Under the pieces are notes generated by a model. That model did not search any database and was not told where the DNA came from. It saw only the letters and a list, made by a program, of their open reading frames with translations. A stretch of DNA of 64,000 bases from Paralichthys olivaceus (taxonomy: Eukaryota; Chordata; Actinopteri; Pleuronectiformes; Paralichthyidae): assembly GCF_024713975.1 (NCBI RefSeq), contig NC_091099.1, forward strand, positions 15,295,501 through 15,359,500, read 5' to 3'. This document shows, piece after piece, positions 9,336 through 37,800 of the stretch (position 1 is its first letter; each line of letters starts with the position of its first letter). The position numbers and the translations under genes were made by a program.

Positions 9336-9540
9336 GTTCATTTGTATGTTTGTTGGTTTGTTTGATTGTGAGTAAGATTACACAGAAACAAAGGAACGCA
9401 TCACTGCGGAACTTAATGGAAGGATGTGGTCTGGATCAGGGAGGAACCCATTAAATTATGCTGTGAATCCAGATCTGCATTTAAAATTGTGAGAGGGTTT
9501 TTCAACATTAAGAAATCAGGCACATTTAGGGAATTTAGGA
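9336..9540. repeat. Dispersed repeat family A, copy 1
   Basis: The segment starts in a T/G-rich 'TTTGTTGGTTTGTTTG' tract and continues to 'GGAGGAACCCATTAAAT'. It is related to the stretch at 13146-13330, which has the same order of landmarks (GTTTGTTTG, ACACA.AAAC, GGAAGGATG, GAACCCATTAAA). No coding capacity was seen. Confidence 0.5.
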
Positions 9541-10281
9541 GACTAATATATATATGCATGTGTGAAATAAACTTGCAGCTCGATTTAATTTAAGGTGACT
9601 GTTGGGCCTTGGTGGAGGTATGATCTCAACTCCTCCCACTTTTATTACTTCCTTTGGTCCCTTTGCTAGTTCACAGATACCCAAAGTAAACTGACTATTT
9701 TCCTTCAGAAAATTCTGTCGGTCACTCATGGACACAACAGAGACTTAAAACTCAGCCAATGCTGCCTGTTTATTTAACACAAAATCATAAGAAATACACA
9801 AGATATGAACAAATATTGAATGCATGATCATTAGTAGTTTTAATAGCACTGAAGATTTTCATATTTGACAGAAGTGTATGTGACACATTAGATGTTGGAA
9901 AATCCTTTCACCAAAAACATAAACACTGCAAAACATCTTTCTTCATTCATGCAGTATACTGTCAATCTGAAGCCCTTCATATATATGTTTTGTCTCATTA
10001 GTTATTTGCATTGAAAGAAAGACCCTCATGGGCTGAAAACATCACATTGCCATTGGAAAAAGTTAAAAGAGTACATGATACCAGCCTGTGCAATCATCAT
10101 GACGCCAGAGCTGCCACACTGACAGTCATGATGACCTTCAGGTAAAGGTAAAGGTTCAAAGATCCAGTGTCTTAAATGTAGGAAACATTTTCATCATCCT
10201 TGGAAGACATGAAACATAAAGGTCTAACAGCTCGAAGTAAAGCTCTTTTTGGATGAAAAACATTTCTGGAGTTTTTCAAAA

Positions 10282-10680
10282 TCAAGGTTGAGTGAGATTG
10301 GTTTCCAGTTTCAAACTTTTTCCATTAGTCTGTGGTGTTTCAATACATTCAGCGACTTGACAGCCGCACTTGTCAACTGAAATGTAAGAGTGCTTCTGCC
10401 TGCTGCCATCAGAGCAGATCATCTCCACTTCCTTCTTGCTGGTGGCCATTTCTTTACAGCATGAGCATGCATGTGTCAAACTGTTGCTCTCTGCAGAGTA
10501 CCTGTAAATAATAGATCAGACAAGCTCAGAGTCAGTCAGCTGCTGTGCAATGTTAACAAACACTTGTCCTGCCAATGCAATTCCTATTCCTTCTCATGCA
10601 TCTCACATTGATGAGGATGCTCCACAGGATCCTTCACAGGCTGTCATTTCCACCAGCACAACTGACTTGCAATTCTTTGT
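10282..10680 (-). pseudogene. Relic mucin: C-terminal cystine-knot (CTCK) exon pair
   Basis: Exon 10617-10680 reads [19 protein letters not shown] and exon 10282-10501 reads [18 protein letters not shown] through [11 protein letters not shown] to a TGA stop. The cysteine pattern (CxGxC, CSCCK, CGC) matches the CTCK domain that dimerises gel-forming mucins and VWF. Both exons are open with good splice signals. The first is about half the length of its counterpart at 15353-15476 (64 against 124 bp). A TTTATT (minus-strand AATAAA) lies near 9769-9774, about 510 bp downstream. Confidence 0.75.
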
Positions 10681-11177
10681 CTGCAGATGGGTGGTGGTGT
10701 TGTGCATTTGACAGATGGGAGGATGATTGCCTGTGAATGACATATGGATGGGTTTTTCATATCTTTAAATAAAAAGACTGGGTTATTTGAACAGAGATAA
10801 AATAATAATAAAAAATATCTTGTGATATGTCGACAGGAATTTGATGGTTTACAACCATTACAAATGTAGCAGGTCAGGATTAATTGTAAAAACAGCGTAA
10901 TGAAGCTTCACGTACAATTGTTTGGACTAGATGAGAGTAATCATCCTATCATGAGAACCCTTCTCACAATATGGCTTTTCCTTAACTTGTACATGCCAGT
11001 GATTGGCCATCTCAGAGCATGAGGAATGAATCATGGCATTTGGTAATCTGCAGTCATTTTTCTTGTTATTGTCACAGGTACCTTATTGTAAAAGTAAATA
11101 TCAACAGGACAAATATTAAATTGGCATTTTCTGTTTTCAACTGATGTACTCTGCCAACAATCCAATGATTAACTTAC

Positions 11178-11944
11178 CACATTGTCCCTCTGTGTTATTG
11201 TGGAAGAGTGCAAATGGCAAATCAATGCTGAATAAAAGTCCTCTGAATGTCACAACTGCTTCAATTGCTGGGATTGTCAAATGCAGCTCGATCCCTGAAC
11301 TTGTAATGCTGAGGTCCTTATTAGAGTAGGTTGGGAATACCTGCTTGCCGTTGATGTAGACCTGCACAATATCAACATTTGTAACAGCATTTTCAGCATA
11401 CATAACATTTTCTACAGACCCTCACTGTATATAATTTAAACACACTATTCAAGTAAAATAATTAGAATAACTCTCATTTGATTGTTGTGATAATTACCCT
11501 GTTTACGGTCTTGGGAATCCTCTCTTGTGTGAGAATAATTTCATAGTCTTTGTAAGACACATTCAGGGCTTTAGGGCAGGTCACAGCTCCAGAGCTGTCA
11601 CAGTTTTCATTGTCAATAAGAATCTTTAAACCATATCTGGGAATGATCTCTTTGAACAGCACGTATGTGCAGTTTTTCTGGAAGCTGTAATATTGGCCAT
11701 CAAATGTAATAAAATGAGGATCTCCCCAGCCACTGCAGACACCTGCAAGTATAGAATTAGAGATTATATTTTGCTGATGTATTTTAAGTAGCTGCTTGAT
11801 TTCTCTTTTTTTCAATTTGAGTTGTGCTTACATCTGCAGTCGTAGTGAAAACAGCAGCCCGTTTCATCATAGATCGCAACTGGCTGTAACCCATTTTCAC
11901 AGATAGGTTTGGTCACTGGTACACATTTTCCTTTAAATAATCTA
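11178..11944 (-). pseudogene. Relic mucin: D4 (VWD) exons
   Basis: Three consecutive exons (11832-11944, 11498-11742, 11178-11361) are open and correctly phased by eye. They encode a cysteine-rich segment ending GCCFHYDCRC, a VWD domain with the GDPH motif, and its second half ending TEGQC. They correspond to parent exons 18891-19065, 18551-18798 and 18250-18433. The neighbouring C8 and TIL exons of the parent have no counterpart between 10681 and 11177. Confidence 0.78.
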
Positions 11945-13145
11945 CTAAAACAATAAAAATTACATTTCCCAGGAGCATTTTGTTAAATTAAATATAAATC
12001 TATAATTTATGACATTGAGGGAATGAGGAAAGAATTTCACACAGAAATAATGCTTAGTTGAAATGCAGCATTTGTTTTGTTGTTTATTTATGTGTATTAC
12101 TGTTTCTCATTGTGTGATTTTGTATGTCGTCATGGTGTATGTGAATGCGTTTTTTATATTTTATGTATCTTACTTGTTAGACTGGATCTGTGGAAGAATA
12201 TCCTCAGTTTTGGTTAAGGTAACTAAGACCTTAAGGTAACTAAGACCTGTAATATTGTTTTGTTTATATATTTCATTAATAATTGAAAGACCAATGAGCG
12301 TATGCAAAGTATATGTTATAAGCATCTTCACTTTATCCAAAGTAATCAAAGACCTTGTTTTGACATTTTAATTGAGATAAATCTTAACTACAATTTTCTG
12401 TAGTGTGGTAAAAAAAATTAAATTGTTTAATCAACAAGAAACATTTTATAGTTAATTAGAGTGAACCATAAAATAGACTACTTTTTACCATTTGTTTTTG
12501 CAGCATTACTGTGACTTGAGTCAGGCAAGTTGATTTATCTGATTTTTCACATCTGAACAGGTCACCGATGACACTGAAAGTCCCATTAGTTTCCTACAGT
12601 CAAGAAAATAAAAATACATTTGATTACAACCTGCTCTCCAACTCTCATTTACCCCTGCTGTGATTATCTTTGTGAGTGAATAAACAAATTTGAGCTTTAA
12701 TTCCTTACTTTGGAGAAAACGTAAGAGCATTCTCAATGAAATGTGTATGTTTTGTCATCATAGGTGGAGATGTGAGAGCCTCCCAGGATGGAGCAGATAG
12801 TGGGACAGTCCATGTCCTGACATTTCCATTCACCAGAGATATGGTTAAATCGACTTGACAGACTGGCTTATTTAAACATGTTGTGAATATAAGAACCAAA
12901 GTGATTACCATTTACGACATGCCCTTGAGTATGATTTCCCTGGTCCGTATGACTTGCCATTGTGCAAACAGGAGCACTGGTATATGGCAACACACCCACT
13001 CTGTGTGATATCATCAAAGAGGCTCCCTTGAGAGAAACATGATGACAATTAGTTTTAGAGCAGTAAAACAATGCTAACTCTGAAAAAGCTATATATGTGT
13101 AGGAATGAGAGTAAAAAGTGTTCACCTTTTCAAGTGTTCAACTTT

Positions 13146-13330
13146 TTTCATTTGTTTGTTTGACTGTTAGCAGCATCACACAAAAACTAATCCAGATTAC
13201 CATAAAACTTGGAGGAAGGATGCGATATGGGTCAGTGAAGAACCCATTAAATGAAAAGTTTGGATTTAGATGATCATAAAAAAATTTTTTTTTCCAGGAA
13301 GTTATTCATGGATCTTGATGATTAAATTAA
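13146..13330. repeat. Dispersed repeat family A, copy 2, inside the mucin relic
   Basis: It shares landmark order with 9336-9540 (TTTGTTTGTTTGACT, ACACAAAAACTAATCC, GGAAGGATGCGATATGGGTC, GAACCCATTAAA). It sits in what would be an intron of the relic mucin, between the D1 and D2 segments. Confidence 0.5.
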
Positions 13331-13999
13331 GCACATCTGGAGGACTCATATGAGGGTGTGAAATTTGATGTGATTTGTCACAGGGTGCGAAAAAACAACA
13401 GTCACAAAGTCAATACATGGGTGTAAAAGATTCCCAAATCTAATGAGATCATTGAGATCATCGACTTTCCAGACCACGACGAAATCTTCAGTAGCAGCCC
13501 CTTATTCAAGAAGAAAAAGAGATTTTTTTACAAATGTGAGGACTAATTTTGTGTGATTTGGTTAGTTTTAAGCTCTATTATTTAATATTTACCCATTTTG
13601 ATGAACTCATCAGAAACCTGGATTCCATTGAAGTCACCACACAGGCCACATGTCTGATTCCTGTATCTTGAATCCAGCTCAACCTTTATACCAGGGGAAA
13701 TTTATAAATTGCAGTAATGAAAAAATAATTTAACTGAAACTAATATTATAAAAAATTTTTCCCGATGAAGGTCTGATGAAGCTGCACTTGATTTTGTTCA
13801 ACCATATTAGACAAGAATGGAAGGTTAGATAACCCACATGACACCTTGACTAATAGCATCTGGGCATTTGATTCATGCCAGACTAACTGGACGTTGAGTG
13901 AATATTTTCTCCAAGAATGAATATTTCTGTGTCTGTCCATTCCCCTTGAGAGCCACTGGTTGTGGATGTCTCTCTTTAACATTTTAATTTAATGTCTTT

Positions 14000-14460
14000 T
14001 CCCAGTACTTTGAGTGTTTGTGTTTTCTTATTCTCATGAGCCTGACCAGGCCGACCACCCCTTAATGAGAAGCAAGTTGGACCTGAAGGCCCACAGGTAC
14101 AATTCATGGCTCGGGTTGAGCAGAATATTTCACCAAGCTTGAAATATGTCTGAGAGGTTTTCCTCACAGATTGGTGTAATAGTGTAAGCGCAGCAAGAAT
14201 CGTGAGGGTCCTTAGATGCAACATGCTGGACTTCAACCTGAATGATAGTGAAGAAGCAGCATATCTTTCAAGTTTGTGCAAAAAGCGCCACCTAGTGGCA
14301 CATGCATACATTTTGTAGTGGCATCATGGCAAAACGAAATGCTCAAGTTTGGTGACAATCAGACAGACCAATATAAAGATATAACCCCACTATGTATCTT
14401 TCTTTTAGGGTGTATGGCCAGAATGAACTAGACAGAAACATGAATGCTTAAAGTTCCATT
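14000..14460. repeat. Probable repeat-derived spacer between mucin relic and intact mucin
   Basis: It contains the phrase 'GCGCCACCTAGTGGCA' (14287-14302), a self-complementary-looking motif often found at the ends of fish interspersed repeats, followed by 'TTGGTGACAATCAGACAGAC'. No convincing exon was seen; the open minus frame here lacks cysteine-rich mucin signatures. Confidence 0.3.
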
Positions 14461-14747
14461 CAGACTCGGGTAGAGGTGCACTTCAGCCTCTTGTCACCAC
14501 AATCAGTAAGAGACTGTAAAAGAAAACTTAAAAACTGATCCTGGCAAAAATAAATAAATACTACAATATGTAAATAATATTTATCACATTCAGAATGTGA
14601 TGGACGTAACAACACAGTGACTTTGAACTTGTGTTTAATTATTCCTACCACCCCTGTGTATTTAGTCTTTGTGCTCTCCTGTCTCCTTCTGTCTGTTACA
14701 ACACAAGCAGGTAAACATCCCTCAAACCTCTCAAATTAGAGTGCTGC

Positions 14748-14753
14748 TTTATT
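14748..14753 (-). terminator. Candidate polyadenylation signal of the intact mucin
   Basis: TTTATT on the plus strand is AATAAA on the minus strand, about 250 bp downstream of the mucin stop codon at 15003-15001. Its use is inferred. Confidence 0.4.
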
Positions 14754-15000
14754 TATGTTATAACAACATTGTTTCATATCAAAGCTGAAAGTTAGTCCAG
14801 CAACAATAAACTGTAATGTTATTCATGGCAGCACCAGCCGGGTTGGCACAAACAAAGTATGAGACTGAACAGAGTTGCAACCTTTTAATTGATAAACACT
14901 TGCATGACAATGACAATTGTTTTGTAAGAGGTGTAATGATTGGTAGAACTATATGGGAGTAATCTTTACATCCAACATCTGTTAAAGTGATGATTTTTTA

Positions 15001-18156: not shown

Positions 18157-21100
18157 CTGACAAGTGAGTAACAAAAAAAGTTAGAACAACAATCTGACCT
18201 CATACTAAAGATTTTCTAATATGAAAACCGGAGAGTGAGAAGCTCTTACCACAATGGCCCTGAGTGTTTTTGCCAAAGTATTGAAATGGAAGGGTAACGC
18301 TAAAGCCATTTATTCCAAATGTTATGACCACTTTTAAACGAGGGATCTCCAAAACCATGTTGAGGCCAGAATTTAAAATCTTAACGCCATGTCGTGAATA
18401 AGGTAGTTTCAGACGTACTCCATCTTTCAGAGCCTAGAGTGAAAATAAATATATGAAATGATATGACAGAATACCAACACTAAAATTTCAGTGACAATTG
18501 AGAGATATTCAGAACATGACATAAAATGCCTTAATGCCATTTTTATTTACCTCCAACTGTGCTGCTCCCATAAGGTTATGATTTATAAGTGTGAAAGCTT
18601 GCGATTCATATGATATAATCAATGATCGCGGACAAGAAACATCTTCAGTTGGATCACAAAAGACATTGTCAATATAAATCTTCAGCTTGTGGTTTGGTAA
18701 AATCTCTTCCATCAAAATGTAAGTACAGTTTCCTTGGTAACTGTAGAACAATCCATCAAATGTGATGTAATGAGGATCTCCCCAGCCTTCACATACACCT
18801 AAAGACAAACGAGAAAAAGTTCAAAATCGAAAACTCATTTACCGGAGTAAAGAAACATGTTATACATCCTTAAACCGCTGAATGGCTTACAGTCACAAGC
18901 ATAATGTTGGCAGCAGTGGTAGTCGTCATACACAAGAACTGGTTTCTTTCCGTTGGTACAAGTGATAGGCTCGATGGGTGGACATTCATATGGAACAATT
19001 ACAATTGTATTGTTCTCAACGCATTTGGCCATGGTGCAGTTGCAGAAATAGAATGTCTCATTTTGCTATGGTAGAGAGAGAGAGAGAGAGAGAGATAGAG
19101 AGAGAGTGAGAGAGAGAGAGAGAACCAAATAAAATCAGCGATATTTTGAATTATTATGCTAAAAATGGAAGAAAGCCTGTTTTCTTTTACAGTGAAAATG
19201 TTCTTACATGTTATTAAATGTACTTAAAATATACAAAACCATTTTGATAACATTATTCACTGTATATATTAAGTTAAAATAAGAAAGTTCTTACTGCTAC
19301 ATCCCATTCAGGACAGGTAGGTACAGGAGGTTTTGTTGTAGGTGTAGGTGTAGGCACAGGCGTGGTGCACATTTCTGTATTGTTGTGAATCTCGCAAATG
19401 TCAGAACATATCATTGTGAGACATACACCTGATCCAAGGTGCTCCCTGTCAAATATGACCTCCCCTAATGGTGAAAATAAAAATGAATAATAGTTAAACA
19501 GTGAAACATTTTAAAATACATAATATAATTACATAATATTTTAAGGATTTAATGTAGTTGTGAAAAGTAAATGTCTTTACTGACCTGGCTTGTATTGCTT
19601 TCCATTAACTATGCAGAAGCATTGTGTGGTCACGCTTACTGTGGTACTTCTTGTCTGTGTCTGTGTTGTTGTAGGAGGTTCTGTTGTTTGGGTCGTAGAC
19701 TTTGTGGTTGTGGTTGGCCCTGGAGTTGTAGTAGGTGGTTCGGTTGTTGGGGTTGTGGACTGTGTGGTAGTTGTTGGCCCTGGAGTTGTTGTAGGGGGTT
19801 TGGTTGTTGGGGTCGTGGACTTTGTGGTAGTAGTTTGCCCTGGAGTTGTTGTAGGTGCTTGGGTTGTTGGGGTCGTGGACTGTGTGGTAGTAGTTGGCCC
19901 TAGAGTTGATGTAGGTGGTTCGGTTGTTAGGGTTGTAGACTTTGTGGTAGTAGTTGGCCCTGGAGTTGTTGTAGGTGGTTCGGTTGTTGGGGTCGTGGAC
20001 TGTGTGGTAGTAGTTGGCCCTGGAGTTGTCGTAGGTGGTTGGGTTGTTTGGGTTGTGGACTGTGTGGTAGTTGTTGGCTCTGGAGTTGTTGTAGGTGGTT
20101 GGGTTGTTGGGGTTGTAGACTTTGTGGTAGTAGTTTGCCCTGGAGTTGTAGTAGGTGGTTCGGTTGTTGGGGTTGTGGACTGTGTGGTAGTTGTTGGCCC
20201 TTGAGTTGTTGTAGGGGGTTTGGTTGTTGGGGTCTTGGACTTTGTGGTAGTACTTGGCCCTGGAGATGTTGTAGGTGGTTCGGTTGTTGGGGTTGTAGAC
20301 TTTGTGGTAGTAGTTGGCCCTGGAGTTGTAGTAGGTGGTTCGGTTGTTGGGGTTGTGGACTGTGTGGTAGTTGTTGGCCCTGGAGATGTTGTAGGTGGTT
20401 CGGTTGTTGGGGTTGTGGACTGTGTGGTAGTTGTTGGCCCTTGAGTTGTTGTAGGGGGTTTGGTTGTTGGGGTTGTAGACTTTGTGGTAGTACTTGGCCC
20501 TGGAGTTGTTGTAGATGGTTTGGTTGTTGGGGTTGTAGACTTTGTGGTAGTAGTTGGCCCTGGAGTTGTCGTAGGTGGCTTGCTTGTTTGGGTTGTGGAC
20601 TGTGTGGTAGTTGTTGGCTCTGGAGTTGTTGTCTGTGTACCTTCTGATGTTGTAGTTGGACTTCCACCGTCCTTACGGGCAGTCGATTTTGATGCTACTG
20701 GAGGACCAGTGACAACTGACTCATCAGTTTTTGAAGTTGTGGTAGTTGGTCCCACAGTTGTAGTAGGAGGTTTGGTTGTTGTAGGTGGTTCGGTTGTTGG
20801 GGTAGTAGACTTTGTGGTAGTAGTTGGCCCAGAAGTTGTCGTAGGTGGTTCGGTTGTTGGGGTCGTAGACTTTGTGGTTGTAGTTGGCCCTGGAGTTGTT
20901 GTAGGTGGTTCGGTTGTTGGGGTCGTAGACTTTGTGGTTGTAGTTGGCCCTGAAGTTGTTGTAGGTGGTTCGGTTGTTGCGGTCGTAGACTTTGTAGTAG
21001 TAGTTGGCCCTGGAGTTGTTGTAGGTGGTTCGGTTGTTGGGGTCGTGGACTGTGTGGTAGTTGTTGGCCCTGGAGTTGTTGAAGGGGGTTTGGTTGTTGG

Positions 21101-24100
21101 GGTCGTGGATTTTGTGGTAGTAGTTGGCCCTGGAGTTGTTGTAGGTGGTTGGGTTGTTGGGGTTGTAGACTTTGTGGTAGTTGTTGGCCCTGTAGTTGTT
21201 GTAGGTGGTTCGGTTGTTGGGGTCGTAGACTTTGTGGTTGTAGTTGGCCCTGGAGTTGTCGTAGGTGGTACGGTTGTTTGGGTCGTGGACTGTGTGGAAG
21301 TTGGTGGCTCTGGAGTTGTTGTAGGTGGTTGGGTTGTTGGGGTTGTAGACTTTGTGGTAGTTGTTGGCCCTGTAGTTGTTGTAGGTGGTTCGGTTGTTGG
21401 GGTCGTAGACTTTGTGGTTGTAGTTGGCCCTGAAGTTGTTGTAGGTGGTTCGGTTGTTGCGGTCGTAGACTTTGTGGTTGTAGTTGGCCCTGGAGTTGTT
21501 GTAGGTGGTTCGGTTGTTGGGGTCGTGGACTGTGTGGTAGTTGTTGGCCCTGGAGTTGTTGAAGGGGGTTTGGTTGTTGGGGTCGTGGATTTTGTGGTAG
21601 TAGTTGGCCCTGGAGTTGTTGTAGGTGGTTGGGTTGTTGGGGTTGTAGACTTTGTGGTAGTTGTTGGCCCTGTAGTTGTTGTAGGTGGTTCGGTTGTTGG
21701 GGTCGTAGACTTTGTGGTTGTAGTTGGCCCTGGAGTTGTTGTAGGTGGTACGGTTGTTTGGGTCGTGGACTGTGTGGAAGTTGGTGGCTCTGGAGTTGTT
21801 GTAGGTGGTTGGGTTGTTGGGGTTGTAGACTTTGTGGTAGTAGTTGGCCCTGGAGTTGTCGTAGGTGGTTCGGTTGTTTGGGTCGTGGACTGTGTGGTAG
21901 TTGTTGGCTCTGGAGTTGTTGTAGGTGGTCGGGTTGTTGGGGTTGTAGACTTTGTGATAGTAGTCGGCCCTGGAGTTGTTGAAGGTTGTTTGGTTGTTGA
22001 GGTCGTGGACTGTGTGGTAGTAGTTGGCCCTGGAGTTGTTGTAGGTGGTTGGGTTGTTGGGGTTGTAGACTTTGTGGTAGTAGTTGGCCCTGGAGTTGTA
22101 GTAGGTGGTTGGGTTGTTGGGGTCGTGGACTGTGTGGTAGTAGTTGGCCCTGGAGTTGTTGTAGGTGGTTGGGTTGTTGGGGTTGTAGACTTTGTGGTAG
22201 TAGTCGGCCCTGGAGATGTCGTAGGTGGTTGGGTTGTTGGGGTTGTAGACTTTGTGGTAGTAGTAGGCCCTGGAGTTGTTGTAGGTGGTTTGGTTGTTGG
22301 GGTCGTGGACTGTGTGGTAGTAGTTGGCCCTGGAGTTGTTGTAGGTGATTTGGTTGTTTGGGTCGTGGACTGTGTGGTAGTTGTTGGCTCTGGAGTTGTT
22401 GTAGGTGGTTCGGTTGTTGGGGTTGTGGACTTTGTGGTAGTAGTTGGCCCTGGAGTTGTAGTAGGTGGTTCGGTTGTTGGGGTCGTGGACTGTGTGGTAG
22501 TAGTAGGCCCTGGAGTTGTTGTAGGTGGTTTGGTTGTTGGGGTTGTGGACTGTGTGGTAGTAGTTGGCCCTGGAGTTGTTGTAGGTGGTTTGGTTGTTTG
22601 GGTCGTGGACTGTGTGGTAGTTGTTGGCCCTGGAGTTGTCGTAGGTGGTTGGGTTGTTGGGGTTGTAGACTTTGTGGTTGTAGTTGGCCCTGGAGTTGTA
22701 GTAGGCGGTTCGGTTGTTGGGGTTGTGGACTGTGTGGTAGTTGTTGGCCCTGGAGTTGTTGTAGGGGGTTCGGTTATTGGGGTTGTAGACTTTGTGGTAG
22801 TAGTTGGCCCTGGAGTTGTTGAAGGTGGTTCGGTTGTTGGGGTTGTAGACTTTGTGGTAGTAGTTGGCCCTGGAGTTGTTGTAGGTGGTTCGGTTGTTGG
22901 GGTCGTGGACTGTGTGGTAGTAGTTGGCCCTAGAGTTGTCGTAGGTGGTTTGGTTGTTGGGGTTGTAGACTTTGTGGTAGTAGTTGGCCCTGGAGTTGTC
23001 GTAGGTAGTTTGGTTGTTTGGGTTGTGGACTGTGTGGTAGTTGTTGGCTCTGGAGTTGTTGTAGGTGGATGGGTTGTTGGGGTTGTAGACTTTGTGGTAG
23101 TAGTTGGCCCTGGAGATGTTGTAGGTGGTTCGGTTGTTGGGGTTGTAGACTTTGTGGTAGTAGTTGGCCCTGGAGTTGTTGTAGGTGGTTCGGTTGTTGG
23201 GGTCGTGGACTGTGTGGTAGTAGTTGGCCCTAGAGTTGTCGTAGGTGGTTCGGTTGTTGGGGTTGTAGACTTTGTGGTAGTAGTTGGCCCTGGAGTTGTC
23301 GTAGGTGGTTTGGTTGTTTGGGTTGTGGACTGTGTGGTAGTTGTTGGCTCTGGAGTTGTTGTAGGTGGATGGGTTGTTGGGGTTGTAGACTTTGTGGTAG
23401 TAGTTGGCCCTGGAGATGTTGTAGGTGGTTCGGTTGTTTGGGTTGTGGACTGTGTGGTAGTTGTTGGCTCTGGAGTTGTTGTAGGTGGATGGGTTGTTGG
23501 GGTTGTAGACTTTGTGGTAGTAGTTGGCCCTGGAGATGTTGTAGGTGGTTCGGTTGTTGGGGTTGTAGACTTTGTGGTAGTAGTTGGCCCTGGAGTTGTT
23601 GTAGGTGGTTCGGTTGTTGGGGTCGTGGACTGTGTGGTAGTAGTTGGCCCTAGAGTTGTCGTAGGTGGTTCGGTTGTTGGGGTTGTAGACTTTGTGGTAG
23701 TAGTTGGCCCTGGAGTTGTCGTAGGTGGTTTGGTTGTTTGGGTTGTGGACTGTGTGGTAGTTGTTGGCTCTGGAGTTGTTGTAGGTGGATGGGTTGTTGG
23801 GGTTGTAGACTTTGTGGTAGTAGTTGGCCCTGGAGATGTTGTAGGTGGTTCGGTTGTTGGGGTTGTAGACTTTGTGGTAGTAGTTGGCCCTGGAGTTGTT
23901 GTAGGTGGTTGGGTTGTTGGGGTCGTGGACTGTGTGGTAGTAGTTGGCCCTGGAGTTGTTGTAGGTGGTTGGGTTGTTGGGGTTGTAGACTTTGTGGTAG
24001 TAGTAGGCCCTGGAGTTGTTGTAGGTGGTTTGGTTGTTGGGGTCGTGGACTGTGTGTTAGTAGTTGGCCCTGGAGTTGTTGTAGGTGGTTTGGTTGTTTG

Positions 24101-27100
24101 GGTCGTGGACTGTGTGGTAGTAGTTGGCCCTGGAGTTGTTGTCGGTGGTTTGGTTGTTGGGGTCGTAGATTTTGTGGTCGTAGATGTAGTAGGAGGTTCT
24201 GTTGTAGATATTGTTGTTGTCTCTTTTGTACTTGAAAGTGTAGTTGATGGAGTTGTTTCACAACATACTCTGATCTCATAGTCGCGACACTTTCTTGGAG
24301 GTCTCAACTGCTCCTCTTGTTTGCATATTAAACCAATTCCCACATCACAAGTGACAACTTGTTCCGATTGACTCCGATAGTCATCGAAGTCCATGTCAGG
24401 ATAAAGTTTTGCTCTACAGTCAATTTCTTCAGGTCTTTTGCAAATTTCTTTTCCACTATTTGTTATATTCTCATATGTTTCCCAGTCACTTTTGTCTGTT
24501 GTTGGGTCATGCACATTGTACCATTCTGACCACTCACACTTACTGCCAGATGTGGTTGTGGTTGGCCCCATAGTTGTCGTAGGTGGTTCGGTTGTTGGGG
24601 TTGTAGACTTTGTGGTTGTAGATGGACCTGGAGTTGTCGTAGATGGTTTGGTTGTTGGGGTAGTGGACTGTGTGGTAGTTGTTGGCCCTGGAGTTGTTGT
24701 AGGTGGTTTGGTTGTTGGTGTCGTGGACTGTGTGGTAGTAGTTGGCCCTGGAGTTGTTGTAGGTGGTTTGGTTGTTTGGGTCGTGGACTGTGTGGTAGTT
24801 GTTGGCTCTGGAGTTTTTGTAGGTGGTTGGGTTGATGGGGTCGTGGACTGTGTGGTAGTAGTTGGCCCTAGAGTTGTTGTAGGTGGTTCGGTTGTTGGGG
24901 TTGTAGACTTTGTGGTAGTAGTTGGCCCTGGAGTTGTTGTAGGTGGTTCGGTTGTTGGGGTTGTGGACTGTGTGGTAGTTGTTGGCCCTGGAGTTGTTGT
25001 AGGGGGTTTGGTTGTTGGGGTCGTGGACTTTGTGGTAGTAGTTTGCCCTGGAGTTGTTGTAGGTGCTTGGGTTGTTGGGGTCGTGGACTGTGTGGTAGTA
25101 GTTGGCCCTAGAGTTGATGTAGGTGGTTCGGTTGTTAGGGTTGTAGACTTTGTGGTAGTAGTTGGCCCTGGAGTTGTTGTAGGTGGTTCGGTTGTTGGGG
25201 TCGTGGACTGTGTGGTAGTAGTTGGCCCTAGAGTTGTCGTAGGTGGTTCGGTTGTTGGGGTTGTAGACTTTGTGGTAGTAGTTGGCCCTGGAGTTGTCGT
25301 AGGTGGTTGGGTTGTTTGGGTTGTGGACTGTGTGGTAGTTGTTGGCTCTGGAGTTGTTGTAGGTGGTTGGGTTGTTGGGGTTGTAGACTTTGTGGTAGTA
25401 GTTTGCCCTGGAGTTGTAGTAGGTGGTTTGGTTGTTGGGGTTGTGGACTGTGTGGTAGTTGTTGGCCCTTGAGTTGTTGTAGGGGGTTTGGTTGTTGGGG
25501 TCTTGGACTTTGTGGTAGTACTTGGCCCTGGAGATGTTGTAGGTGGTTCGGTTGTTGGGGCTGTAGACTTTGTGGTAGTACTTGGCCCTGGAGTTGTTGT
25601 AGATGGTTTGGTTGTTGGGGTTGTAGACTTTGTGGTAGTAGTTGGCCCTGGAGTTGTCGTAGGTGGTTCGGTTGTTGGGGTCGTGGACTGTGTGGTAGTA
25701 GTTGGCCCTAGAGTTGTCGTAGGTGGTTTGGTTGTTGGGGTTGTAGACTTTGTGGTAGTAGTTGGCCCTGGAGTTGTCGTAGGTAGTTTGGTTGTTGGGG
25801 TTGTGGACTGTGTGGTAGTTGTTGGCTCTGGAGTTGTTGTAGGTGGATGGGTTGTTGGGGTTGTAGACTTTGTGGTAGTAGTTGGCCCTGGAGATGTTGT
25901 AGGTGGTTCGGTTGTTGGGGTTGTAGACTTTGTGGTAGTAGTTGGCCCTGGAGTTGTTGTAGGTGGTTTGGTTGTTTGGGTTGTGGACTGTGTGGTAGTT
26001 GTTGGCTCTGGAGTTGTTGTAGGTGGATGGGTTGTTGGGGTTGTAGACTTTGTGGTAGTAGTTGGCCCTGGAGATGTTGTAGGTGGTTCGGTTGTTGGGG
26101 TTGTAGACTTTGTGGTAGTAGTTGGCCCTGGAGTTGTTGTAGGTGGTTGGGTTGTTGGGGTCGTGGACTGTGTGGTAGTAGTTGGCCCTGGAGTTGTTGT
26201 AGGTGGTTGGGTTGTTGGGGTTGTAGACTTTGTGGTAGTAGTAGGCCCTGGAGTTGTTGTAGGTGGTTTGGTTGTTGGAGTCGTGGACTGTGTGTTAGTA
26301 GTTGGCCCTGGAGTTGTTGTAGGTGGTTTGGTTGTTTGGGTCGTGGACTGTGTGGTAGTAGTTGGCCCTGGAGTTGTTGTCGGTGGTTTGGTTGTTGGGG
26401 TCGTAGATTTTGTGGTCGTAGATGTAGTAGGAGGTTCTGTTGTAGATATTGTTGTTGTCTCTTTTGTACTTGAAAGTGTAGTTGATGGAGTTGTTTCACA
26501 ACATACTCTGATCTCATAGTCGCGACACTTTCTTGGAGGTCTCAACTGCTCCTCTTGTTTGCATATTAAACCAATTCCCACATCACAAGTGACAACTTGT
26601 TCCGATTGACTCCGATAGTCATCGAAGTCCATGTCAGGATAAAGTTTTGCTCTACAGTCAATTTCTTCAGGTCTTTTGCAAATTTCTTTTCCACTATTTG
26701 TTATATTCTCATATGTTTCCCAGTCACTTTTGTCTGTTGTTGGGTCATGCACATTGTACCATTCTGACCACTCACACTTACTGCCAGATGTGGTTGTGGT
26801 TGGCCCCATAGTTGTCGTAGGTGGTTCGGTTGTTGGGGTTGTAGACTTTGTGGTTGTAGATGGACCTGGAGTTGTCGTAGATGGTTTGGTTGTTGGGGTA
26901 GTGGACTGTGTGGTAGTTGTTGGCCCTGGAGTTGTTGTAGGTGAAGTGGTGAAAATTGTTGTTGATGAAGTTGACGGTGGGACAGTTGAAGTGACGCAGG
27001 TTTCATTTTCAATTTTCACTGTTGCATTGATGCAAATTGCATAGTAGCACTTTCCCACATTATCAGTCACATTGTAAATGACATCATTTTCTTCATATCT

Positions 27101-30100
27101 GGTCCCATTGTAAAAGCAACCTTCACATTCCTGTACACAAATCTGGTGTTGCTCATCATATATGGGCTTATCTTCTGGGCATACAGGGTAACAGCCTATA
27201 AAAATCACAAAATAAAATATCATAATATTATAAATGGAAAATCTTTGTATTTAAGTTGCTCTTATAATGAAGACTGAAGCCATGAATTGAAGCTGTATTG
27301 TTATTTTGTCACATTAAGTAAGCCATGTTAATCAGAGGTATGTTCACTGTGAGAAAACAGCTTACCTTCCAGATTTGGTATAGGGTTACTACAAATTCCT
27401 TGTGGATTCAGACAGGTCTTGTAACAAGGCGTGTGACAAGGGTTGTAATGCCACTTGCAGTCATCTGGGCTGTTGTAATAATCACAAAAGACAGCTAGGA
27501 AGAAAAGATGCAAGCTACATCATGAATTTGGAGTAAAGGATGTGTTACTACATTAAGTATCATGAGGTTAACAAGAACTCAAACCTGAACCTGTTTAGTT
27601 TTAACTAAATGACAAATCTCTAAATGTCTAAAAGCCGGGGCTTAAGAACTTTGGAATTAAAAAGAGATCAATGGGCCAGAAAAGGCTGAAAACATCAGTT
27701 TAATAACTTAAGGGTAAAATTGTTGTTTACTTACGACAGATGTCTGGAGTTCTCCATGCAACACAGACATCAGCCTCATTACAAGCTTGGGCATAAGCTG
27801 TGACTGCTGTGCAGAAACACTCACAATCTCCTCCAGTGTCACAGGCACACGAGTCTTTCACGCAGTTTTCATAAAATGGAAGGGGGTCTACCTGCTCAGT
27901 AATTGAAAATTGATGCATTTAATATTTCCAACGACAGAACTTTATGTGATGATGAATTCGAAACAACTCTTATCACCTTATTGTGGCAGCCTTTGAATGT
28001 TGGCCCGGTTATAATGCTACACATCGCTTTTGCCCAGTGATGTCGATTGGGCGTCGCTGTGCAAGCGTCAACATTTGCTTCCGCATCAGGGCAGCTGCTG
28101 GACACTTTCCAGCTGTTTGCAAATTCTGTGGGACTGCTGACCTCCAGCTGACCCTGGGTCGTGAAGTCGTTCTGGACATCACCGTCAAAATTTCCGCACA
28201 GGCCACATACGTTTCCCTGCACAAACAACAGGAGTCAGTGATTTCTTTTACATGGCGACGATATTACAAATGAATGTTCTTCATATTGAGCATTAACAAG
28301 GAGCAAACCTTTTCTGGGCTTAAATATATTTTTATAGTATAATACTTTATTGAATCATGAGATTATTATGCCTCAACTACCTTTAGAGCATTTGTAGTGT
28401 ATAGCAATATCATTATTTTCCCATAGTGGTGTTGATCTACAAACTTAGCTTCACTACAGATGAAGAAAAAGTGTACACTATATGAAAACTCCAGCTCTTA
28501 TCTGTTACCATGAGAGATTTCAGTCATCATCACTACTGTGACTCACGCTGTGCTGTGTTTCCAGGAGGATGCGAACAGTTGTTTTGCGATCCCACATCAC
28601 TGCCACACCAATGGCAGATTCAACCACCAGGTACAAGCCGACCTTTCTTATTTTGAACGGAATATAAGGGCCATTGCCCAGTTCGTTCGTTTCATTTTTA
28701 CCCTTTGATAGCTTGATTTCCATTCGCTGTAGGGTTAAAGAGATTTATGTTGCTTTCACTGTCACGCAAAAAACTGCAATTTGATTTGACAAATGTTTTA
28801 AATATGAAATGTCAAGGCCAGAAAACATGGTGCTGTTTTGGGATCTTACCCCAAGTTGGATCCTGACAGTTTTGGTGCAGGTGGTGCCTGTAGATCCACA
28901 TGGTACATTTTCTGTGGTAACTCTAAAGTTGTCTGCTGCTGTTTTATTCCCGCATTTACTCTTAAAAAAGAAAGATGCATGACATATTTTTTGCTTCATA
29001 CAGAGACACCATTGAACAAATCACACTGTCAGTTTATACGTTTCTAGAATACATTTAAATTGTTAAAGAACCACGGAAAGGTAAATAGGATAAAAGTAAA
29101 TTTGATCCCCAGGAGAGTGTACTGTGCTGTATACTGTAGTTATCTGCAGTTTTCATTGACATTCCTTATTGTGACATGCAGATATCTTAAAATCAATGGT
29201 GGTAAACATATTATAAATCTTTTTAAGCATCATATATTGACTTTTAAAACTGATGTTAAAGTTTATCAATGACATGAAAATTGTATAAAAGCCATATCAA
29301 TGAATTTCTGGGACAAGAGCCTACATTATAGAATAAGTTAAGCATCTTGGCTGTGTCCAAAATCACTTGCTATTTATATTTATAGTTCATTACATGTACT
29401 TTTGATCTGGATATCTCTAGTATGATGTAGAAATAATAAAAAAGAATGTGTGAGGTCTTAACAGTCTCTTCTGAGTAGAGTTTTGCCATCACTGTCTCGA
29501 ATGAATCGCCTAAGGTTGTCTGAGACGCTGTTTTCTTTAACTCTCAGCAAAAAAAAATTTCAGAGGGCAGATTCCTGAATTTACTTAGGATGCCAGATTA
29601 CTATTATTCTTTTATCTCTATCATTATTATTTATTTACCCTCTGCTGTGTATTAACCAATAGTTTTCTATTGTGCAGTACTTTGAATGTCAACCATTTGT
29701 TTTCTTGTTATGCAGCACTTTGTACTTTGTGTCGAAAAGTGCTCTATAAATAAAGTTATATCATTATTAGTAGTATTTTTGTATTAAAGTACTGAGATCC
29801 TGCTGGAAAGAAAGAAGTGAATGAGTGAATAAGGCAGGGATTTCCATCACATTATGTCATTCTGATGATGTTCACATTCTTTATTTACCGTGACAGCAAT
29901 GTAGGCACAATGTCCTTGAAAGGCAAATGTCTGCTGATCAAATGTAGAGTGGTGACCACTCCCATAGATAATACAAGTTCCTGGACATTTTTTGTCTGTG
30001 CACTCCCACTTTCCGCTCTTGCAGGTACTAGATGTATAAGAGATAGTTAAATACAAAACAGGGCAATCAAGTGAATTAAAAAGACAAATAACACAAAATG

Positions 30101-33100
30101 TGTTAATATGTCTAGTAAAAACAAGGTCATACCACATGTTACACTTGTTAGGGATTTGTGCTCCTGGGGCATACAGATGCCCGTCATGCTGACATGGACA
30201 TTCGTTTTCTCTCACACAGGAACCTTTGCCATCGTCAATGAGGCCACTGGGACACCGGCAACCAGATTCACAGTCTGTGAAGTCCTGGGAAGGAAGAAAC
30301 ATCACGACTGTCAGGAAACGACCATAGACACTAGCGCTGTGTTACATATCCAAAGTAAAGTACTTTAAATGAATGTTACATCTTTTATTTGAGACTGAGA
30401 GGTCAGATTCAATACAGCAGAAAAACAACTCACACAATCATTGTTGTCTAGATTCAAACAGGTTCGAGCACACTGGACTCCGATCTTTCCTGTGCCCGGT
30501 GTGGAGCAGTTGAAAAACTCTTTTGGAAAAGGGCATGCTGTGACAGAGGGAGTACCGATTCAGTCTACACATTAAACACATTATTACACAAATGTGTGTT
30601 GAGGAGGAAAAAAAAAAGACATACATGATAAGCGGGTTCTCCAAGAACGACAATGAAGCATCCCGTTGGTGCAAACACTAGAAAAGACACCAGAGATAAA
30701 AGATGGAATGCATGGGTATTTAAAAACTATTCAGTCAGGACAAACATTATAAACAATAAAAAACACCTAAGATAATAAAGGCAAATGTCAACAAAATTAA
30801 AATAATTTTTTCACCAGTGTTCGTCCTTGATGCTGATGGACTTCCCTGACTTGATGTAGGCTTCGTCATAGTAACAGGGACACTTTGCCATGGGGACGCA
30901 GACGCCTTTTTCATTCAGGTAGAGACCCTCAGAACAGGAGCAGCCATCCACGGGCAGGAAGTCAGAGGAGCAGCTTGGCTGATTTGAGCCCAGCGATCTG
31001 CAGGTCAACTGGCATCTCTGATGTTTGTAAGAGAAGGTCTGAGACGCCGCACAGCTCCTTGTGTATTTGTCTGTTTTGTGCACAACACGAGGATGGTTAC
31101 TGGGAAAGGGATATTGTGAATTCAGAATGCATCACCTCAGCATTAAGAACGAGATCCTTACCACACACGTTCTCTCTCCAGTCTGTTAAGAACACTCCCT
31201 TTGCTGCACAAGCCCGCGCGTAAGAGGAGAAGACGCCACACAAGCAGGCCTCACTCTTCTCACAGTTACAGCTTGCATAAGTGCATCGCTGCACAAGAGA
31301 AATATTTTTTTAAAGGACTACAGTCACATCAAAGTGTAATGTCATTTAATTAAAACTGATAGAAAGATTTGTCCTGTACCTTGTAGTACATCTCAGGATC
31401 CACCGCTGAGCGACACTGTGCAAAGGTGCTGTTTGGTTTCAGCAGCAAGGCACACCAGTGTTTGGCGTACAGCTCTGAGAATGAAGAAACAGCAACCTTT
31501 TAACTTTTATTTTCTACAACTGTGTAAAATTCTCTTGTTGCCTGAAATATAACTTATACGCAGACAAAAAAACATTTGATGGAGGCTGCAAATCAATCTA
31601 AAAAAACACATGTGACAAAGACTACTGTTTACCATTCTCTACACTGAGGGAACAGGGGTCGTCAAGTCTTTCCGTTCTGTCTTGACACATGAGGTTGGCC
31701 TTCCAGGAGTTACTGAAAGTGACGGCTGTTCCTTCCACGATCCCCTGAGGTGTCTTCATATCGTCAGACAGGACCATGTTGTAGTTCCCACATAAACCTG
31801 AAGACACAAAATATTTTAGAAGTCAAAACAGAATGATTAGAACCATTAATGGAGCAATGCCTGTGAGCTACTACAAGCAGCCAACTCGGACATGAAGTCG
31901 GAGCCTAGACGCCAAACAATAAATAATTTGAAATGTGAAATATCATCATCATATTATTATGTTGAATAATATGAACAGATTTAATTATTGTATGCTACAA
32001 ATAAACCACATTTAGACTCCTACAAGAGTGTTTTTTATCACATGTGTAAGACTGAGCTTTCACAGACTGATTCTACTTTAGCTTTGGGCATTTTTTCAGT
32101 TAAGTCTGTCAGTTAAATTCATTCACTTTGCAACTTTAAAGGATAAATTAGGTTCCAAATACCTAATAATTTAACATTACTGCTGTCATCCTCTCAACTC
32201 ATCAGATGATAGTGTGTAATAACTAATGATCCATTGTAAATGTATTGTATTCTCATATGTTTTGATGATGAAAATGTGCCATGTAAAGAGGAATGTTAAA
32301 CTTACCTCGTGTATGTCCTCTGTAGCTTGGATCCAGACTGACATAGACTTGCATGATGGGCACATGCTGGATCTGAATCTGCAACCCAAAACTGGTCTGG
32401 AGCAAAATGTGAAAGGAAGAAGCATGGAAGATGTTGATGCCACCTATGAATAAAGGAACAGAAGATGATTAATGTGTTAAATCACATCATAAATAAAATT
32501 AGACAGTAAAATGTTGTATTCAGAGTTTATTATGGTGTGACCCACCTAGAGCCTGGTATGGTAAACTGATGGTCTGTGTGTTCTGCTTCACTTTTCCGTC
32601 TGAAGTGAACATTAATACCTGAATGAGAACAGATTGAATCAGCTGAGTGTTGCAGATATCAGTGTGAACTAATGAATGACTATAGTCTTCTGAGCCAACA
32701 GAGTTAAACTCACATTGTTTCTGTCATTGTTCAGCAGGATTTTCAGGGTTTTAAGACAAGTATCAAACTCTTGGTCTACACAAGGCACCAGCTGGACCAG
32801 GATGGTAAACTTTGGACTTGTGTCGTTCTACAACATAAAGCGAAACAACATATTCTTGTTATTAGTTATTACTTTACAGCAGGTGATTTAGTTTTTTGTG
32901 CCATTTAGTTGTTCAGAGCAGTAACTCGGTCACCTTGCTGTCCACCTTGGCTAAGACGTAATAACAATCTCCATGGAAGGTGAAGGTTTTCCCATCGAAG
33001 GTGGTGACATGTGAACCCTCCTCGACTGCACATGTAGCAGGTGTTTGGAGGCTCTTACAGGCCCATCTACCCTCCAAACATGTACTGAAATAACACAAAT

Positions 33101-37449: not shown

Positions 37450-37800
37450 TTAAAGGTCCAGTGTGTAAGATTTAGGTAAACGGGATCTACTGGCAGAAAT
37501 TTATTGTAGAATAATCCTCATGATGTTTTCAATAGTTTGTTTCATCTAAATTGTATGAATTGCATTTTTCTTTACCCCAGAAAAGGCCCTTTATATTTAA
37601 ATACTTATATTTTACTTCATGAAAAAAATAGACATCTTTAGGGGAATGATATGAGTGTGTGTCCATATGTGGTTTCTTAGGGGAACTTTTGGACCTCGGC
37701 GTAACATGCTCTCTGCTGAATGCCAGTCTAGTTTTCATTATGAATAAAAAAGTAGATGCAGTTCATACCAGCGGTGACTGCAGGCGGTCCAAGGCAGATG
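37450..37800. repeat. Dispersed repeat ('AAAGGTCCAGTGTGTAAGATTTAG' end)
   Basis: It begins with the phrase AGGTCCAGTGTGTAAGATTT followed by 'GGGATCTACTGGCAGAAATTTATTGTAGAATAATCCTCATGATG', a signature I recall from abundant percomorph repeats. The right edge is uncertain. Confidence 0.5.

Follow-up and report, generated by a model that had tools for sequence, protein, structure and literature searches.

Window positions 10282-13683, on the minus strand of a 64,000 nucleotide (nt) stretch of the Paralichthys olivaceus genome (contig C7, positions 15295501-15359500; the window, in which all positions are given unless a contig is named), very probably hold the non-functional, unprocessed remnant of a gene of the gel-forming mucin type, an old paralog distinct from the mucin gene that adjoins it. 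We refer to the remnant as B, to the neighbouring mucin as A, and to two further mucins on contig C1 as C1a and C1b; the genome searched comprises 588 Mb in 25 contigs. On the reading we favour, B was formerly a gene that followed A head-to-tail, with a gtf2h1-like gene close by. The stretches that B now misses would have been lost by deletion, and point changes would have struck the remaining exons, leaving a TGA in the D2 region and damaging the acceptor of exon E6. Lacking a signal peptide, assembly domains and a mucin domain, B could not make a gel-forming mucin, and it presumably makes no protein at all. Judged from its sequence, B most likely does not work as a gene and is an unprocessed pseudogene.

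Exon remnants and missing parts of gene B

Translated exon pieces of A were compared by tblastn with window positions 9600-14980. Nine minus-strand segments, each taken with its highest-scoring partner, match exons of A in the same order, eight of them at E≤1e-5 and one at 0.005, and they lie in a span of 3.4 kb compared to 21.1 kb for A. An earlier note on this DNA had described nine such segments, a span of 3.4 kb against 21 kb, and exon lengths of 91/91, 184/184, 245/248 and 220/211 nt in B and A, all of which hold; a 124/124 nt pair can be added.

The upstream half of B retains little. E1 (13683-13593) is the end of the D1 VWD unit, has 91 nt as does exon A4 of the neighbour, carries splice dinucleotides at both ends, and matches A4 at 3.6e-13 and the Pfam VWD model at 1.4e-7. 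E3 (13026-12909; 118 nt, 115 in A8) is the exon preceding the D2 VWD (tblastn with A8, 9.6e-6), and E4 (12853-12709; 145 nt, 151 in A9) is the start of that VWD (tblastn with A9, 2.1e-14). E4 contains the in-frame TGA at 12735-12733 that the earlier note had placed in a D2 exon. Two further pieces are fainter. E5 (12593-12489; 105 nt, 114 in A10) is a probable continuation of the D2 VWD, sharing 8 of 35 residues with A10 and giving no significant match alone, and E2, from 13500, is weaker still, with no tblastn match to A. Other VWD units of A match B less well (A20 to E4, 2.6e-11; A19 to E3, 1.7e-5; A2 to E7, 1.0e-7; A23 to E1, 0.004). As VWD units resemble each other, E3 and E4 might instead represent the beginning of D3, but their placement in D2 is favoured by the better scores, by length (118 nt versus 115 for A8 and 152 for A19; 145 nt versus 151 for A9 and 139 for A20), and by the matches to the C1 mucins.

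The downstream half is better represented. E6 (11982-11832) precedes D4, and counts 151 nt (175 in A) from the start that is homologous to that of A's exon; it matches the pre-D4 exon of A at 8.9e-7. E7 (11742-11498; 245 nt, 248 in A) is the first half of the D4 VWD, is open, has its splice dinucleotides, and matches at 2.1e-27, while E8 (11361-11178; 184 nt, as in A) is the second half, also open, at 5.1e-11. E9, from 11081 to about 10960, is the end of the D4 VWD (8.4e-10), its second half and donor lost. The two CTCK exons follow as E10 (10730-10607; 124 nt, as in A) and E11 (10501-10282; 220 nt, 211 in A), the latter ending in TGA and matching at 3.5e-13. E10 is the segment found at 0.005 only, a level that a wrong-frame tblastn match also reached by chance, and we therefore accept it on its order, on its 124/124 nt length, and on the match of the joined E10 and E11 translation to the Pfam Cys_knot model (7.5e-12). 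The joined translation of E7-E9 gives a Pfam VWD match at 6.8e-32. B thus retains the D4 VWD and the C-terminal cystine knot that are a feature of gel-forming mucins, as seen by Pfam on joined exon translations.

VWD, D4 and CTCK exons are what B has in common with MUC2/MUC5-type genes, and their order and approximate lengths are those seen in A. Its D4 aligns end to end with that of human MUC2 (E 3.8e-44, 7qcl) and its CTCK with the MUC2 CTCK (5.9e-12, 7qcu); an FCGBP structure (8rde) gives a lower E than 7qcl for D4, by summing several weaker VWD matches. The differences in exon length, B minus A, are 0 (E1), +3 (E3), -6 (E4), -9 (E5), -24 (E6), -3 (E7), 0 (E8), 0 (E10) and +9 (E11), the starts of E4 and E6 being set by homology. 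All nine exons with both ends set therefore differ by multiples of three, which indicates that B was once one coding gene. Introns and exon order are retained and disabling changes are present, as in an unprocessed pseudogene.

B has no uninterrupted spliced frame. Besides the TGA in E4, the acceptor of E6 is lost: E6 and the homologous exon of A share the start CAAAATG, but the preceding bases are 'aa' in B and 'ag' in A, although an 'ag' at 11946-11945 could serve instead. Similarity of E9 to A ends near 10954, with no donor there, and reading continues to a TAG at 10929-10927. The claim of the earlier note that the D4 and CTCK exons stayed open consequently stands for their codons but not for splicing and length.

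Whole parts of the gene are also missing. Outside the nine segments we see no tblastn match below E 1e-3 to A's exon pieces, and so no sign of signal-peptide, D3, PTS (the mucin domain exon) or VWC exons; this agrees with the absence of PTS, D3, CysD, C8 and VWC first described from the letters. Among the parts of a signal peptide plus D1-D2-D'-D3 N-terminus, only E1, E3, E4 and the weak E5 were found. For the PTS/CysD exon there was no match either by blastn of 9500-14100 against the region, with the low-complexity filter on, or by tblastn, in which the query from A's PTS exon was its opening ~300 nt. Between E9 and E10, tblastn gave no match to C8, TIL or VWC pieces. Relative to A, B lacks at least four stretches: the signal peptide and first D1 exons; the D1 C8/TIL exons; the rest of D2 through PTS; and the D4 C8 exons through VWC. 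In these missing parts (no signal peptide, D', D3, CysD, PTS or VWC found), in its in-frame stop and in its lost splice signals, B is unlike MUC2/MUC5-type genes.

A fragment of a dispersed repeat lies at 13144-13294, at the expected place of the D1 C8/TIL exons. When 13050-13430 was compared with a 264 kb region and 13 other loci, three further copies, 67-74% identical, were seen within the 264 kb. Separately, an open reading frame at 12367-12170 was weighed as a possible new first exon, its end being able to join E6 in phase at the alternative start, but no match supports it.

It had been proposed that B lost its repeat exon, a point not demonstrated here; relatives without a PTS domain exist. 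Ovomucin, a Muc2-like member of a gel-forming cluster, has no PTS domain in the chicken inventory (PMC1552070, in the part available), where fish homologues are given as a preliminary result, and spiggin, a mucin relative of sticklebacks, is a second case in the accessible text of PMC2180178. An ancestor of B that never had a PTS exon, and was a smaller ovomucin- or spiggin-like gene later partly lost, is a possible if unlikely variant, and is compatible with our preferred explanation. There is no PTS trace in B, as this variant would have it. However, the gap between E5 and E6 (~510-545 nt in B versus over 13 kb in A) lies where the PTS exon would have been, and spiggin is placed in the MUC19 line by PMC2180178. 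B differs from ovomucin, which has four VWD units.

Could the missing exons exist, lost or misplaced in the assembly? The same chicken inventory (PMC1552070) notes how difficult mucin genes are in sequencing and annotation, but there is no ambiguous base (N) in the 264 kb examined, and wrong joins do not produce a TGA at base level or the loss of an acceptor. Genome searches with B's own exons gave no second copy of B, although exons absent from the query would be undetectable in this way. We consider an assembly error very unlikely, the form of it that is still conceivable being exons that the whole assembly lacks.

Kinship of B with the mucins of the genome

Genome searches turned up four nearest relatives for B, namely A, the inverted copy of A described below, C1a and C1b. 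The last two are gel-forming-mucin-like genes in tandem at C1:3688042-3784545, with D4 at 3714939 (C1a) and 3775357 (C1b); the assignment of the D1/D2, D4 and CTCK matches on C1 to two genes was made from their order and strand. The pairs C1a-C1b on C1 and A-B on C7 show the same order and the same direction, which suggests that an old two-gene mucin block is present twice in the genome. With B itself excluded, genome matches to its exons reach at most 54% identity in D4 over at least 50 residues (66% and 60% in two short stretches, of 29-31 residues), at most 47% in CTCK, and up to 74% in short D1/D2 matches.

The earlier note regarded B as a decayed head-to-tail duplicate of A. Much of that description is sustained, as B does appear to be a decayed gene of the gel-forming mucin type that lies head-to-tail behind an apparently intact A, but the descent from A is not. 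D4 of B is 43% identical to that of A, 50% to C1a, 47% to C1b and 42% to human MUC2, whereas A and human MUC2 share 49%. An unrooted tree was built from D4+CTCK of five sequences (A, B, C1a, C1b and, as the one non-fish member, human MUC2). It joins A with human MUC2 at an ultrafast bootstrap (UFBoot) of 100, and divides {A, MUC2, C1a} from {B, C1b} at 96. Six of the 15 possible topologies were then compared by the approximately unbiased (AU) test. All three in which A and B are sisters are rejected on D4+CTCK (AU p 0.0001, 0.0012 and 0.0003), while B+C1a is not rejected (0.075) and C1a+C1b gives 0.033. With CTCK alone the A+B topologies give AU p 0.016, 0.273 and 0.052, a signal that is too small.

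The same strand, the adjacent position, the same exon order and the near-equal exon lengths would all suit a tandem duplicate of A itself that later collapsed. Exon lengths and phases do not single out A, though, because further mucins in this genome have them as well (in the C1 mucins, each D4 exon aligns with its counterpart), and the rejection of A+B sisterhood leaves such a duplication extremely unlikely. It follows from that rejection that A and B would have split before A's line parted from human MUC2. That B is an old separate paralog and not the sister of A is the firm part of this phylogenetic reading. With five sequences in the tree, the grouping {B, C1b} at 96 gives a provisional family for B.

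VWD sequences are numerous in the genome (at least 126 matches), with dense clusters at C13:11.49-11.51M, C21:4.50-4.52M and C22:2.07-2.09M. Some of these lie in long open frames, and they match B's D4 weakly. Our guess is that these clusters are zonadhesin- or FCGBP-like.

Probable timing of the loss and state of the D4-CTCK end

Only one stop is found in 1377 nt of retained codons of B, a count that excludes trimmed ends, E2, and the tails of E9 and E11. If substitutions are the only source, each substitution per site should bring 60.5 stops, and a single stop fits a neutral divergence (d) of ~0.017, with values above about 0.08 unlikely; this estimate omits the lost acceptor and the truncations, and is lower again once frameshifting indels are allowed at a rate of 0.1 per substitution. 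The single stop suggests that B was lost fairly recently.

Some of the data sit uneasily with a gene that is dead along its whole length. The D4-side codons that were counted, 927 nt in all, are free of stops, and in the D4+CTCK tree the tip branch of B (0.36) is shorter than those of the other four sequences. Of the cysteines shared without exception by A, C1a and C1b within the compared stretches, B retains all 24 (16/16 in D4+CTCK and 8/8 in D1+D2), and E7, E8, E10 and E11 can be joined in phase. We also counted private changes, where one of A, B, C1a and C1b differs at a position on which the remaining three agree. In D4+CTCK these number 5/59 for B, versus 22/76 for A, 23/77 for C1b and 8/62 for C1a. 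In D1+D2 the counts are 10/50 for B (the stop included), 8/48 for A, 3/43 for C1a and 7/47 for C1b. Such a well-kept D4-CTCK end would also fit a C-terminal piece that is still in use, which might be secreted by itself as a short product or be spliced to A's transcript to give it a different 3' end, with only the N-terminal half dead. The exon rich in private changes is, moreover, the one with the TGA (8/25 in E4).

Against continued use stand the lack of any signal-peptide exon match, the lost acceptor of E6, the truncated E9, and the interval from E9 to E10, in which no C8, TIL or VWC piece was matched. The contrast on which the idea leans is also slight: 5/59 in D4+CTCK and 10/50 in D1+D2 differ only at p 0.10 (Fisher), a tendency carried by E4, an exon singled out post hoc. 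The earlier suggestion that D4-CTCK was spared while D2 decayed thus survives as a tendency that falls short of significance. Even at a neutral divergence of 0.05, substitutions alone would leave no stop on the D4 side with a probability of 0.135. A codon model gives for D4+CTCK a w for B (wB) of 0.131 versus 0.055 (2dlnL 0.86, not significant), and wB=1 is not rejected (2.23); the number of synonymous substitutions per site (dS) is saturated, running to the bound of 20. For D1+D2, wB is 0.171 versus 0.219 (0.17, not significant) and wB=1 is rejected (6.52), again with synonymous change saturated. Because of this saturation the codon model is uninformative on selection in B.

Taken as a whole, a D4-CTCK half still in use is highly improbable. 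A specific form of it, in which this end is a working cassette spliced behind A's transcript, or a small secreted protein capping mucin polymers, while the front half decays, we hold to be very improbable. For B as a remnant, the data do not separate two histories: B may have suffered large deletions and then died recently, or its C-terminal half may have outlasted the rest.

Neighbouring mucin A, its inverted copy and related mucin arrays

A (15001-36142, minus strand) is a MUC2-like gel-forming mucin with N-terminal exons, a PTS exon, and D4 and CTCK exons. Its 25 N-terminal exons are in phase without a stop (the start of A16 is at 31070) and join a single open PTS-bearing exon that runs down to 19579. 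For the D4 and CTCK exons after it the check covered splice dinucleotides, which are present, and the interval between D4 and CTCK was modelled in part. A is complete as far as checked, and shows the form of a full gene at this locus. Its PTS exon (19577-27250; 7.6 kb) contains repeats of 60 nt, together with a pair of almost identical blocks that each carry a Cys-rich unit, taken here to be CysD; the twin blocks look like an internal duplication. The window also contains a TFIIH p62-like (gtf2h1-like) gene below B and a tryptophan-hydroxylase-like gene above A.

Window positions 14051-37612, which include all of A, are repeated in inverted orientation at C7:15464040-15486014, ~130 kb away and ~98% identical outside repeats. 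By blastn the copied segment ends at 14051, ~370 bp upstream of E1, and B is left out. B inside the inverted copy is ruled out by this end point, and by protein searches in which no second B appeared. Between A and its copy, the 25 N-terminal exons show dS 0.0095 and dN (the nonsynonymous counterpart) 0.0065, with no stops in either, and 143 of 9629 non-exon sites differ. The inverted copying of A is recent; a link between it and the loss of B is a guess.

The two sides of the copy (stretches 15449501-15459500 and 15489501-15499500) contain pieces of anoctamin and vesicular glutamate transporter genes, names that come from the closest solved relatives and do not fix the paralogue. In human, ANO5 and SLC17A6 are neighbours, and on that basis the copy would occupy the newer of the two locations. 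The copied segment that holds A has at its outer end a dispersed repeat of ~160 bp (37451-37611), which also flanks the inverted copy on both sides in opposite orientations (168541-168703 and 190833-190992 on the same contig, in window-based positions). This repeat was possibly involved in the copying of A.

We found no name for the locus of B in the mucin literature searched, which included PMC2180178, PMC5840709, PMC5728529 and PMC1552070 in their accessible parts, most subscription papers lying outside its scope. The nearest parallel is in the spiggin genes, where Gaac_spg2 and Gaac_spg6 are, like B, disrupted members of a tandem array that also has working ones, and where Gaac_spg2 lost its central region (PMC2180178, as far as its available text goes). 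B, an old paralog that stands singly next to a MUC2-like gene, differs from the spiggin pseudogenes, which form part of a lineage-specific expansion at a MUC19-type locus.

Gene loss in mucin arrays is otherwise ordinary, and the extra interest of B is that an old separate paralog was lost with a fresh inverted copy of its neighbour alongside. As interpreted here, what disappeared with B was an old gel-forming mucin and not a spare copy of A. The shared order and direction of A-B and C1a-C1b bears on the origin of vertebrate mucin clusters, and the recent inverted copy of A beside a broken B speaks for a locus that is still being reshaped.

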